A DNA stretch of 64,000 bases from Sphingorhabdus sp. Alg231-15. Its GTDB lineage: Bacteria > Pseudomonadota > Alphaproteobacteria > Sphingomonadales > Sphingomonadaceae. Made by a program: the position numbers and the translations under genes. A model generated the notes under the pieces. The model was given only the letters and a program-made list of their open reading frames with translations. It had not been told where the DNA came from and searched no databases. Of the stretch, positions 2,399-6,523 are shown piece by piece (positions within the stretch are counted from its first letter, which is position 1; each line of letters begins with the position of its first letter). Where the stretch lies: positions 930,001 through 994,000 of the forward strand of contig NZ_LT703001.1 in the NCBI RefSeq assembly GCF_900149705.1. Direction: 5' to 3'.

Positions 2399-5290
2399 AT
2401 GACATTAGACAAAAATTTCGATCCGGCGGCCATTGAAGCGCGCTGGTATGCACATTGGGAACAATCCGGCCAGTTTCGCCCTGAACGGGATGATGCGGAG
2501 CCGTTTACGATCGTCAATCCGCCGCCCAATGTTACCGGAAGTTTGCACATTGGTCACGCACTCGACAATACGTTGCAGGATATCATCATCCGTCACGAAC
2601 GGCTGAAGGGCAAAGATGCGCTTTGGGTTGTCGGCATGGACCATGCGGGTATTGCGACCCAAATGGTTGTCGAGCGGCAAATGAACGAGCGTCAGCAAAA
2701 ACGCACCGATTTTACCCGTGAAGAATTTGTCGAAAAAGTCTGGGAATGGAAAGAGGAATCCGGTGGTACAATCACTGGTCAGCTCCGCCGTCTCGGCTGT
2801 TCGATGGACTGGTCGAACGAACGTTTCACCATGGACGAAGGCATGAACGAAGCGGTGCTCAAGGTCTTTGTTGATCTCTATAATGATGGCCTGATTTACC
2901 GTGACAAGCGGCTGGTCAACTGGGATCCAGCGCTGAAAACCGCGATTTCCGATCTGGAAGTTGAAACCACCGATATGAAGGGCAGCTTCTGGCATTTCAA
3001 ATATCCGCTGGCTGACGGTGTGAAATTGGATAACGGGCAAGATTATATTGAGGTCGCGACCACACGCCCGGAAACAATGCTCGCCGATATGGCGGTCGCC
3101 GTGCACCCTAGCGACGATCGCTATAAGAGCGTGATCGGCAAAGAGATTGAACAGCCGATTACTGGGCGTAGATTTAAGATCGTCGCCGACGAACATGCTG
3201 ATCCTGAATTGGGCAGCGGCGCGGTGAAAATCACACCGGGCCATGACTTTAACGATTTCGAAGTCGGCAAGCGCGCCGGTTTTGCGGCTGGCGAAATGCT
3301 CAACATGCTCGATGGCGAAGCCAATGTTTGCCAGAGCGCTGACGGCCTGGTGCCCGACGAATTTATTGGCCTGCATCGTTTCAAGAAAGATGGTGTGAGT
3401 GGTGCCCGCGAACTGGTGGTGCAACGGATGAAGGAGCTCGGCTGTCTGATCCCGCACGTTACCAAAAACAAGGATGGCGAAGAAGTAGAACATGACGCCG
3501 AGCCGCGCACCATCGCGACACCTTTTGGTGATCGCGGCGGCGTGGTGATTGAACCGTGGCTGACCGACCAATGGTATGTTGATGCCGAAACTTTGGCGCA
3601 ACCTGCAATCAAGGCCGTCCGCGATGGCAGCATTGAGATCGTACCGAAGACCTGGGAAAAGACCTGGTTCAACTGGATGGAAAATATCCAGCCTTGGTGT
3701 GTGTCGCGCCAGCTATGGTGGGGGCATCGGATACCAGCTTGGTTTGGATTCGAACTGCACGGTGAAAATCGGCTTTCTATTCACATTCCGGATAACGACG
3801 AACTTCGCAACGCTGGATCGACAATCAATGACAAGGTCTTTGTCTCTGAATCCGAAAGAAGTATGATTGATGCTGCCAAAGAATTCTACAATCGCGAAAT
3901 TGTTGTAGTTGCAGATAGAACAGCAGCGGTAGCATACACACTAGATAATCCTGAAAAGATGGCTACTCATGCTCCGGTATGGCAAGATCCTGACGTCCTC
4001 GACACATGGTTCTCCTCTGCTCTCTGGCCGTTCGGCACACTGGGCTGGCCCGAAGAAACCGACGACCTCAAGCGCCACTACCCCAATGATCTGCTGATCT
4101 CCGGCTTTGATATCCTGTTCTTCTGGGATGCGCGCATGGCGATGCAGGGCATTCAATTTATGAAGGATGTTCCGTGGAAGCGGCTCTATCTGCACGGGCT
4201 GGTCCGCGCCGAAGATGGTTCGAAAATGTCAAAATCCAAGGGCAATGTGGTCGATCCGCTCGGCCTGATTGATCAATATGGCGCTGATGCTTTGCGCTTC
4301 TTCATGGCGGCAATGGAAAGCCAGGGCCGCGACATCAAGATGGATGACAAGCGGGTTGAGGGCTATCGCAACTTTGCGACCAAGCTGTGGAATGCCTCGC
4401 GCTTCTGTGAAGTGAATGGCATTGGCGCGAGCAAAACGCTACGTGCGCCAGAAGCCAAGCTGCCGGTCAACCGCTGGATTATTTCAGAAGTCACCGAAAC
4501 CCTGGCGACACTCGACAAGGCGCTGGGCGACCTGCGTTTTGATGCTGCGGCGAACACGATTTATCACTTCACTTGGGATCGGTTCTGCGACTGGTATCTC
4601 GAACTGATCAAACCGCTTCTGCAAGGCGATGATGCCGCGGCTGCGAATGAAACCCGCGCGGTTGCCGGTTGGGTGCTCGACCAGATCATTGTCATGCTCC
4701 ACCCGTTCATGCCGTTCATTACCGAAGAATTATGGCACAGCATGGCTTCGGAAACCGGTGGCCGGAACTATGATCTGATTGTTGCGAAATGGCCTGAGCC
4801 AAAAGCGGACATTGACGAGGAAGCCAAGGCGGAAGTGGACTGGCTCATTCGCCTGATCTCTGCAACCCGTACAGCGAAGGTCGAACTCAACATCGCGCCG
4901 GGCACCAAGATGACCGCCCATGTTCGCGATGGCGATGATGCCTTGCAGCAACGGATTGCACGGCAGGCATCTGCGCTGGATCGGGTCGGCCGTTTGGAGA
5001 GTTTCTCCTTTGATCCTGCTCCTGAGGGCGCAACCGCACAAATCGTTATCGACGGTGCAACCTATGTGCTGCCCCTGGCTGGTGCGATTGATATTGATGC
5101 GGAAAAAGCGCGTCTTGGCAAAGCGCTGGAAGGCGTGTCCAAGGAAGCCAAGTCTCTCGAAGGCCGACTGGGCAACGCCAATTTTGTCGAGAAAGCCAAA
5201 CCGGAAGCAGTGGAAAAAGCGCGGGCGGACTTGGCTGATAAGACTGCTGAGGCTGAACGCTTGCAAGCGGCTCTTGCGCGTTTGGGGTAA
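2399..5290 (+). CDS. valS: Valyl-tRNA synthetase
   Basis: Charges tRNA-Val with valine and edits mis-activated threonine; class I aminoacyl-tRNA synthetase in the cytoplasm. It has 963 residues. The HIGH signature is at residues 50-53, the KMSKS loop at 609-613, and [14 protein letters not shown] and [11 protein letters not shown] border the catalytic core. The C-terminus (about 890-963) is the usual ValRS coiled-coil arm rich in K, E and A. Between WGHRIPAWF and DPDVLDTW (bases about 3745-3985) lies a stretch that looks longer than in typical ValRS and is visibly AT-richer, including ELHGENRL and [11 protein letters not shown]. The frame stays open through it and both flanking motifs are intact, so the enzyme should be functional. 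Confidence 0.97.
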
Positions 5291-5292
5291 GG

Positions 5293-5773
5293 GTTTCACG
5301 CAAAGGGCGCTAAGGTTCTCAAGAGGGCAGTTTTGTGGTCGATCTTGAGAATAGAGCAAGCCGGGTAATTGATGCGGCACTGGGCGTTCATGTTGATTTG
5401 GGGCCTGGTCTGTTGGAATCGGTTTATGAGCAGGTTCTCGCTAACCGGTTGCGCAAGCTAGGCATGAAGGTTGATCGCCAAATGCCCGTCGGCACGCGGA
5501 TTGATGGTTTGGATTTTCCCGGCGCTTTTCGGGCGGACATACTGGTCGACGACAGCCTACTGCTAGAAATCAAAGCCGTGGAACGGCTTTTTCCAATCCA
5601 TACCCGTCAGACACTAACCTACCTACGGCTCATGAAACTGCCATTGGGCCTCCTCATCAATTTCGGCGGTATCACATTGAAAGAAGGACTCAGGCGCGTA
5701 GCAAACAATTACCGCCTACCCCGAACAAATAGCCGCTAACCTCTTAAAAATCTTTGCGTGCATTGCGTAAAAC
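5293..5773 (+). mobile_element. GxxExxY cassette bounded by terminal inverted repeats
   Basis: A 481-bp unit. Its left end (5293-5327, GTTTCACGCAAAGGGCGC...) and right end (5739-5773) are inverted repeats of each other; I count 26 identical positions of 35 when the right end is reverse-complemented. The GxxExxY gene fills the space between them almost exactly. A second copy of the same unit, with the same ends but most of the gene deleted, lies 37 bp downstream. The boundaries are inferred from where similarity between the two copies and between the ends stops. No transposase is encoded, so movement would depend on a factor supplied elsewhere, or on the GxxExxY protein itself. Confidence 0.6.
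5335..5739 (+). CDS. GxxExxY protein (PD-(D/E)XK-like fold)
   Basis: Small protein of 134 residues of the GxxExxY family (TIGR04256 / PDDEXK_3-like). The signature is GLLESVY at residues 25-31. A nuclease-like core is suggested by Asp68 in RADILV and the EIK triad (Glu78-x-Lys80), which is the spacing of a PD-(D/E)XK active site. Function is not established for the family; a nuclease role is inference. The GTG start follows AAGAGGGC as a plausible ribosome binding site. The gene sits exactly between inverted repeats, and a deleted copy of the whole unit follows, so it looks like cargo or enzyme of a small mobile cassette rather than part of the valS operon. Confidence 0.85.
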   Translation: MVDLENRASRVIDAALGVHVDLGPGLLESVYEQVLANRLRKLGMKVDRQMPVGTRIDGLDFPGAFRADILVDDSLLLEIKAVERLFPIHTRQTLTYLRLMKLPLGLLINFGGITLKEGLRRVANNYRLPRTNSR

Positions 5774-5810
5774 TTCTCCGCGAAGCGGACTTTTTAAGAT
5801 TGGGTAATTG

Positions 5811-6020
5811 GTTTACGCGAAGGGCGCTAAGGTTTTTAAGAGGGTGGTTTTTGTGGTTGATCTTGGGGATGGAGCCAGTGGGGGAATTGATGCGGCTGTC
5901 GCCGGGGGTACGAACTCAAACGCGTAGCGTTTAACGACCGCCCCCCCCTGATCAAGTAGGGCAACAACCACAAATTCTTCCACTAACCTCTTCAAAATCC
6001 TAGCGCACTTTGCGTAAAAC
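5811..6020 (+). mobile_element. MITE-like deletion derivative of the GxxExxY cassette
   Basis: A 210-bp relative of the unit at 5293-5773. The left end (5811-5844) and right end (5986-6020) form an inverted repeat that matches more closely than in the full unit. Inside, the GTG start and first roughly 45 bases of the gene (from 5853) are recognisable, including GAATTGATGCGGC. This joins directly to the gene's last portion (GAACTCAAACGCGTAGC, from 5912). The middle of the gene, about 290 bp, is missing. A C-rich run at 5939-5947 is not in the intact copy. No protein is encoded; this is a non-autonomous or dead copy. Confidence 0.65.
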
Positions 6021-6085: not shown

Positions 6086-6523
6086 CTAATTGGTATCACC
6101 ACGCCGCATCTGTTCGGCTGCTCTTCGCATCTCCGCCGCACCTTCGCGCATCTCCACGGCACCACGGCGAAATTCCGGCGCTTGTTTCAACAGCTCGTCT
6201 GCCGTCATATTCCCTTCGTTCCACTTATTCCGCTTGGCTGCCTCGGATTCACGAAAAGCTGCATCGCTCTCCAACCGATCGGCATAGGCTTCCATCTTGT
6301 CAGCGCCGCGCAGCATTTTGTCGGCGCCTTTTTCCATCCCAATTGCGCCTTTGGCCATGCCAGCTTGAACCTTCGCCTCAATCTTCTTGGCGAGGTTTTC
6401 GCTCCACTTCCTGTCATATTTATGCTTGCCGTCATGCGCCTTGCTGGCGGCAAGAGGAACAATTGATGTCATTGCAATGACCGCGAGTCCAGCCATTACT
6501 CCTGCAAATTTTCTTGTTGTCAT
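6086..6523 (-). CDS. Secreted, helix-rich repetitive protein of unknown function
   Basis: A protein of 145 residues with a Sec signal peptide (MTTRKFAGVMAGLAVIAM..., cleavage near AASKA). The mature part is highly charged and helical, with imperfect repeats of the type MEKGADKMLRGADKMEAYADRLE and later RRGAVEMREGAAEMRRAAEQ. This looks like an amphipathic or coiled-coil arrangement in the periplasm. GGAGAAG at 6-12 bases upstream supports the start. I recognise no domain. It stands alone between the cassette copies and the HerA-like gene, transcribed in the same direction as the latter. Role unknown; a periplasmic structural or stress protein is only a guess. Confidence 0.7.
   Translation of the reverse strand: MTTRKFAGVMAGLAVIAMTSIVPLAASKAHDGKHKYDRKWSENLAKKIEAKVQAGMAKGAIGMEKGADKMLRGADKMEAYADRLESDAAFRESEAAKRNKWNEGNMTADELLKQAPEFRRGAVEMREGAAEMRRAAEQMRRGDTN

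Follow-up and report, generated by a model that had tools for sequence, protein, structure and literature searches.

Directly after a presumed valS gene, the DNA analysed here (the window: 64 kb of Sphingorhabdus sp. Alg231-15, contig NZ_LT703001.1, positions 930,001 to 994,000) holds a gene of the GxxExxY family between inverted repeats, followed by a shorter unit with the same ends. The locus raises the question of what a GxxExxY gene does inside such a unit, and whether the shorter unit is a mobile derivative of the longer one. Comparison across genomes rather favours a two-part system, in which a putative GxxExxY nuclease of the PD-(D/E)XK type is paired with cognate units ended by heptamer arrays. 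Such a system would resemble REPIN/RAYT, the partnership of doublets of repetitive extragenic palindromic (REP) sequences with REP-associated tyrosine transposases, with another enzyme in place of the transposase. Coordinates are positions in the window, and the window genome is labelled G000.

Heptamer arms around GxxExxY genes

The 134-aa protein of the window matched TIGR04256 (E = 2.9e-33, 114.7 bits, cut-off 35) and PF13366 (PDDEXK_3; E = 6.6e-33, 114 bits, cut-off 22), confirming that the first unit carries an intact GxxExxY gene, as the original prediction had it. Residues G25, E28, Y31, D68, E78 and K80 were invariant or at least 90% conserved in alignments of 50 and 84 sequences. The nuclease-like D...ExK core noticed earlier is thus conserved, and the predicted fold of the protein is of the PD-(D/E)XK type. 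No PDB sequence matched at E ≤ 1. The window protein alone matched 7558 protein clusters (E ≤ 0.001). An annotated member in Sphingomonas parapaucimobilis (L132, 2001-2429) lies between fabD and fabG, with spacers of 33 and 2 bp.

We compared 66 GxxExxY loci: 29 from the genus of the window, which represent about five sites and are not independent, 30 from a sample of the phylum, and seven on plasmid records (Sphingomonas, Bacteroides, Bernardetia, Gemmatirosa, Persicobacter, Fusobacteria and Treponema). Left out of this set were two partial matches (L056, L057), genus matches without a fetched locus and phylum matches beyond the 30 loci. The flanks of the gene formed an inverted repeat (score ≥24) at 53 of the 66 loci, compared with 5/66 for the distal flanks, a control in which nine loci at contig ends were counted as 0. 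Each arm was made of two or three near-tandem heptamers, CRCNRA[G/T], with spacers of 1–3 bases. At least two phased heptamers were found in both arms at 43/66 loci and in at least one arm at 58/66, as against 0/66 on the opposite strand and 0/57 in distal flanks. In a non-redundant set of 46 loci (proteins <85% identical), the respective numbers were 30 and 39. GxxExxY as the cargo of units with inverted-repeat ends, proposed for the window, is therefore common beyond it.

The heptamers fell into spacing classes of 8, 9, 9/10 and 10 bp, and the left and right arms agreed in class in 43 of 43 loci. Some unscored loci carried a further heptamer variant such as CACGGAA. In G088 (L270, L271), arms of this variant adjoin GxxExxY genes and lie outside the patterns used.

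Spacing class followed the protein. A quick protein tree was made from 64 usable proteins of the 66, reduced to 46 by removing those ≥85% identical; 39 had a scorable arm class, and 23 of the 43 inner branches of the tree were open. Spacing class changed seven times on this tree, whereas shuffling gave 18.6 changes on average and never fewer than 14 (0/1000 shuffles); the seventh heptamer base changed once (0/1000). Within one host family (f43), where all classes coexist (26 rows), there were five changes of spacing against 13.9 (minimum 10; 0/1000). The fifth heptamer base was not significantly associated with the tree in this family (64/1000). Recognition of the heptamers by GxxExxY is an inference that this covariation supports well.

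Gene-free units and the class of the resident gene

The 398 genomes of the gene search were also scanned with a pattern of three phased heptamers. The 64 genomes with a GxxExxY gene above cut-off held 1706 arm matches and 36 matches of the reversed pattern; the 334 genomes without it held 510 and 48. Three or more arm matches were present in 51/64 genomes with the gene vs 31/334 without. In the dominant family, the median was 21 arms in the 45 genomes with the gene and 5 in the 29 without (p = 3e-6). Outside this family, at least two matches were found in 11/19 genomes with the gene vs 19/305 without (p = 3e-8). The gene-free copies that we read in sequence were mostly hairpin units of 60–180 bp at gene junctions, for example at hisA-hisF; another lay at purH-purD, in a genome where no GxxExxY gene was detected. 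The gene names at these junctions are putative and come from translated starts.

Expanded runs of 10-bp heptamer units (CACAGATAAA), slightly unequal in copy number, were seen at G084:C1:232589-232695 and G076:C25:181640-181726. In G032 (L247, L248, L250), a genome with no detected GxxExxY gene, the arm pairs face outward.

Arm numbers were also class-specific. In a genus of 23 genomes, 38 listed gene matches corresponded to 37 regions (two pieces lay in one region), 32 of which were classed and five had no class; the class-8 calls of L287 and L296 were ties. Class-10 arms had a median of 16 in the seven genomes with a class-10 gene vs 0 in the 16 without, and class-9 arms a median of 30 (15 genomes) vs 7 (8 genomes). 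For class 8, the values were 17 with the gene (two genomes, one via a tie) vs 1 without (21 genomes). The association of arm class with gene class was reached in 0/5000 joint permutations and held within genomes (p = 5e-4, 16 genomes). With the ties set aside, the joint permutation still gave 0/5000, and classes 9 and 10 in the 18 gene-bearing genomes alone gave 1/5000. The suggestion that GxxExxY may itself act on the repeat ends gains strong support from these class-matched copy numbers and from the protein-repeat covariation, although of an indirect kind.

Units are found between co-transcribed genes and are able to fold as hairpins, judging from their inverted arms rather than from energies. 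The arms might accordingly be RNA hairpins (terminators or processing signals) under selection for base pairing, with the gene as a bystander. We compared 57 arm pairs, drawn from the first places listed for each genome. The likeness of left and right arms was 0.859 within units and 0.852 when arms were re-paired within the subfamily, with 300 of 2000 shuffles as high. Since real pairs are no more alike than re-paired ones, separate protein sites are favoured over a selected RNA stem. RNA hairpins would also leave the link between arms and gene class unexplained, and we regard them as a very improbable explanation.

Purifying selection on the gene is strong. Its ratio of nonsynonymous to synonymous substitution rates (dN/dS) was 0.09 at the valS site, compared with 0.07 for valS itself (21 pairs). 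At two further shared sites it was 0.10 and 0.11, from the 38 of 45 and 9 of 15 pairs, respectively, that allowed the calculation. Values of ~0.09–0.11 at three sites indicate that the gene is retained, as would be expected of a domesticated binding or repair protein that reads the arms for a host function, such as chromosome or transcript processing or repeat recombination, while another agent or ordinary recombination spreads the arms. Domestication would also fit the gene-free units at operon junctions and the records matched by the window protein (E ≤ 1e-5), which were 0 of 50,697 from phages and 7 of 72,556 from plasmids. However, the gene sits between the same arms at many unrelated places, and each class of gene-free unit goes with the gene of its class; a mobile relation predicts both most simply. 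We therefore consider domestication unlikely.

Junctions with and without a unit

Empty sites, which the original prediction had placed in relatives, were found at valS, hisA-hisF and znuC-znuB. Among 20 genomes, the hisA-hisF junction held an arm-ended hairpin unit in eight and another spacer in three; the two genes abutted or were ≤6 bases apart in eight, and one genome was unplaced. At znuC-znuB, G084 and G076 had a whole gene unit and G183 a remnant, and 16/20 genomes had none of these forms. The gene unit of G219 at this junction has CGCGGAT in place of CGCGAAT, with its 10-bp class unchanged. When the empty junction of G271 was compared with the filled one of G076, CTCCTGT lay to the left and GCCGGG to the right of the unit, and no duplication of three or more bases was present. 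A comparison of 28 candidate units across ~780 kb of G084 and G076, to which 400 kb of G103 was added as a third genome, revealed more units that one genome has and a relative lacks.

We picture the favoured two-part system as follows. The gene is encoded in a unit of ~450–500 bp, the ends of which are inverted arrays of two or three CRCNRA[G/T] heptamers with subfamily-specific spacing, and many genomes have dispersed gene-free hairpin copies of these arms (60–180 bp) at gene junctions. GxxExxY would bind the array of its own class as DNA and would cut or nick there; cleavage is suggested by the conserved core. Units with or without the gene would occasionally be copied to new junctions with no target duplication, the gene-free ones using GxxExxY in trans. 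Such movement of units is suggested by empty sites and class-matched numbers; that GxxExxY causes the copying we infer.

Close relatives can have units of different class at one junction. Heptamer class differs in both arms between the hisA-hisF units of the close relatives G084 (L189) and G076 (L190), the flanks of which are 87.5% and 92.4% identical, and the unit of G219 (L197) has one arm of each class. This suggests that occupied sites are re-inserted into or overwritten. Such mixed and differing arms, together with the lack of any target duplication seen, could reflect a homing-like conversion, in which the nuclease cuts and host recombination copies a unit into the break, so that arms at occupied sites are overwritten and not transposed. 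On the other hand, units were also present at junctions where no homology to a donor was noticed, and no intact recognition site was identified across an empty junction. Homing-like conversion is thus a quite improbable account.

Several observations weigh against the two-part system as we picture it. Flanks matched in direct orientation (score ≥24) at 20/66 loci, because neighbouring units and repeats also match directly, and a phased heptamer pair was on neither side at 8/66 loci. Outside the phylum, plasmid-record loci had both arms in 1/7 and either arm in 3/7, which makes the case there thin. Many arms were present in genomes without a detected gene (G215, 133; G322, 29; G282, 29), class-8 arms occurred without a class-8 gene (G076, 20; G283, 15), and the gene-free G006 and G008, of the window's genus, held six and four arms. 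Eight gene-bearing genomes, including G000, had no triple-heptamer arm. The genomes are phylogenetically non-independent, and some counts, such as that of G084, are inflated by tandem heptamer runs. The junctions znuC-znuB and hisA-hisF, which have diverged, showed no target duplication; no defined cut site was found, and no movement event was seen. The place of the gene-free unit at G084:C1:288052 is taken in both relatives by a shared but unrelated spacer of ~150 bp, and therefore replacement, rather than clean insertion, occurs.

The window locus itself has the following features:

2399..5290, + strand: 963-aa open reading frame (ORF), upstream neighbour, which we take to be valS; stop codon at 5288-5290
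5291..5773, + strand: unit 1, the complete GxxExxY element, 483 bp, from direct and inverted repeats
5294..5326, + strand: left arm of unit 1, with CGCAAAG at 5299 and CGCTAAG at 5308 (9-bp spacing), then TTCTCAAGAGG
5335..5739, + strand: GxxExxY gene, 134 aa, GTG start, intact, PD-(D/E)XK_3 family, core D68, E78, K80
5740..5773, - strand: right arm of unit 1, the left arm copied in inverse
5808..6020, + strand: unit 2, the deleted tandem copy, 213 bp, with its two ends and the two terminal portions of the gene retained
5812..5843, + strand: left arm of unit 2, CGCGAAG and CGCTAAG, 9-bp spacing
5987..6020, - strand: right arm of unit 2, from inverted and direct repeat comparison
6086..6523, - strand: 145-aa ORF, next downstream, convergent

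Unit 1 starts (5291) directly after the valS stop codon. The two units share direct repeats at 5285-5334/5802-5851 (82%), 5331-5378/5849-5896 (83%) and 5733-5773/5980-6020 (83%). The inverted-repeat score was 28 within unit 1 and 40 within unit 2, and the best of 2000 single-base shuffles reached 22 and 23. Two tandem units with shared inverted ends, as originally described, are therefore present; the ends are ~32–34 bp long, close to the 35 bp first given. The alignment of the two units covers 191 bases with 80% identity. It was correctly recognised as a deleted copy with both ends and the outer gene parts, and its loss is ~270 bp of interior (213 vs 483 bp) rather than 290 bp. Apart from the GxxExxY ORF, the only one scanned, the unit has no ORF that belongs to a transposase family, in agreement with the earlier claim.

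A search of the window genome for further copies of the end, proposed as a check, returned zero-mismatch matches of CGCNAAGGNCGCNAAGG at units 1 and 2 only. The genome has a second GxxExxY gene ~87 kb away, with heptamer-type flanks on both sides, one of them interrupted (read by eye); its automatic inverted-repeat score is 19, under the threshold (L036). A palindrome with the core CGCTATGGGCGCAAAAG was considered as related and dropped as a different repeat. It is dispersed in the window genome, with seven exact copies listed and near variants, is unrelated to the GxxExxY ends, and is exemplified by L030 and L031 at 1501-1517 (G000:C1:817978, 819192).

Among the other genomes of the genus, 24/31 had TIGR04256 matches at E ≤ 0.001, 23 of them above cut-off. 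The gene unit was present at valS in G000, G014, G017, G019, G020, G026 and G027. It was lacking in G030, G023 and G011 and in more distant genomes with a readable spacer, and G006 had a short left-end remnant alone. In relatives without the unit, an ORF resembling the downstream 145-aa ORF also follows valS. The spacers of the empty G030, G023 and G011 fail to align with those of filled genomes and hence do not yield the exact insertion boundary at valS, which orthologous loci had been expected to give together with any target duplication. The synonymous divergence of the GxxExxY gene at this site was of the order of that of valS and lower in 15/21 pairs, so that the gene appears mostly vertical, with some exchange possible.

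At valS, the second unit of G019 and G020 is likewise shortened and shares its internal junction with unit 2 (read by eye). Unit 2 therefore has the look of a tandem duplicate that was inherited and has decayed. G027 also has a second unit, but its interior is different. No dispersed copies of the window subtype were found in the window genome, nor, by the pattern used, any triple-heptamer arms in relatives carrying the valS-type gene only. Elsewhere, a gene-free heptamer unit of 171 bp is repeated head to tail at least 7.6 times, up to a contig end (L243, 2051-3355; G183:C57), which indicates that such units amplify locally. Against this stands G009, where a GxxExxY gene in opposite orientation is flanked at valS by two ~118–120-bp units with long inverted ends (L094), evidence that short derivatives of the window subtype do form. 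This gene of G009 has one in-frame stop according to the family search. For unit 2 alone, we consider it probable that it arose by local tandem duplication and had lost most of the gene before the species split, and that it is no mobile MITE-like derivative (MITE, miniature inverted-repeat transposable element). The autonomous/non-autonomous relation originally read from the two units is seen with other subtypes in other genomes and is not supported for unit 2, with its inherited junction and lack of dispersed copies. The window element is best read as an old insertion after valS that has passed on mostly by vertical descent, together with a tandem duplicate that has decayed.

Comparison with known repeat systems

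REPIN/RAYT systems are described as consisting of short inverted doublets in intergenic DNA, with the cognate gene flanked by the same repeats; there are several repeat flavours, each with its own gene, and repeats are more numerous where the gene is present (PMC3116915, PMC8049555, PMC8266576). The RAYT gene is described there as vertically inherited and not seen on plasmids. The likeness extends to inverted intergenic repeats that are dispersed and accompanied by a cognate gene that they flank (elsewhere in the phylum and not in the window genome), to class-matched repeats and genes, to more arms of the GxxExxY type where the gene is present, and to mostly vertical inheritance. The systems differ in the enzyme, which is PD-(D/E)XK for GxxExxY (with matches to PF13366 and TIGR04256 only) and an HUH/Y1 tyrosine transposase for RAYT, and in the repeats, which are phased 7-mer arrays as opposed to REP palindromes. 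In addition, the complete GxxExxY gene unit recurs at several sites per genome or genus.

As in MITEs derived from insertion sequences, deleted gene-free units keep the terminal repeats of the gene-bearing unit. Unlike these, the GxxExxY unit encodes only GxxExxY and no known transposase, and lacks a single defined terminal base; at the diverged junctions compared, no target duplication was seen. One paper proposes, from one Thiomargarita genome, a hupL MITE family tied to putative PD-(D/E)XK_2 transposases (PMC4853749). Shared with our units is the proposed tie between a PD-(D/E)XK protein and short elements that have inverted repeats. The linked family is a different one (PF12784, TIGR01784), with 10-bp terminal direct repeats and 19-bp inverted repeats. 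GxxExxY also differs from Cas4/RecB-like and Hjc nucleases in being a stand-alone protein of 134 aa bordered by heptamer arms, with no PDB sequence match as above.

In the literature searched, which did not cover preprints or most subscription journals, GxxExxY occurred as a name only, with no account of ends, function or mechanism; TIGR04256 and PDDEXK_3 were unmentioned, PF13366 was listed, and letter strings of the heptamer arrays matched, judging from the listing, animal papers only. The proposed partnership of a GxxExxY gene with tiny mobile DNA looks previously unrecognised. We see about an even chance of a stronger statement, that GxxExxY genes are a new class of autonomous mobile element. 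In such elements, one PD-(D/E)XK nuclease of 125–135 residues would read terminal phased heptamers, move without target duplication and support large populations of gene-free hairpins in many bacteria, a second, independently evolved form of the REPIN/RAYT way of life.

If the two-part system is right, it would account for a common kind of intergenic repeat found across many bacteria, and the GxxExxY family would gain a function that one binding assay could check. Heptamer and spacing class would make up a natural protein-DNA recognition code with many variants. A comparison with REPIN/RAYT could then address why bacteria keep populations of an enzyme plus its repeats over the long term.
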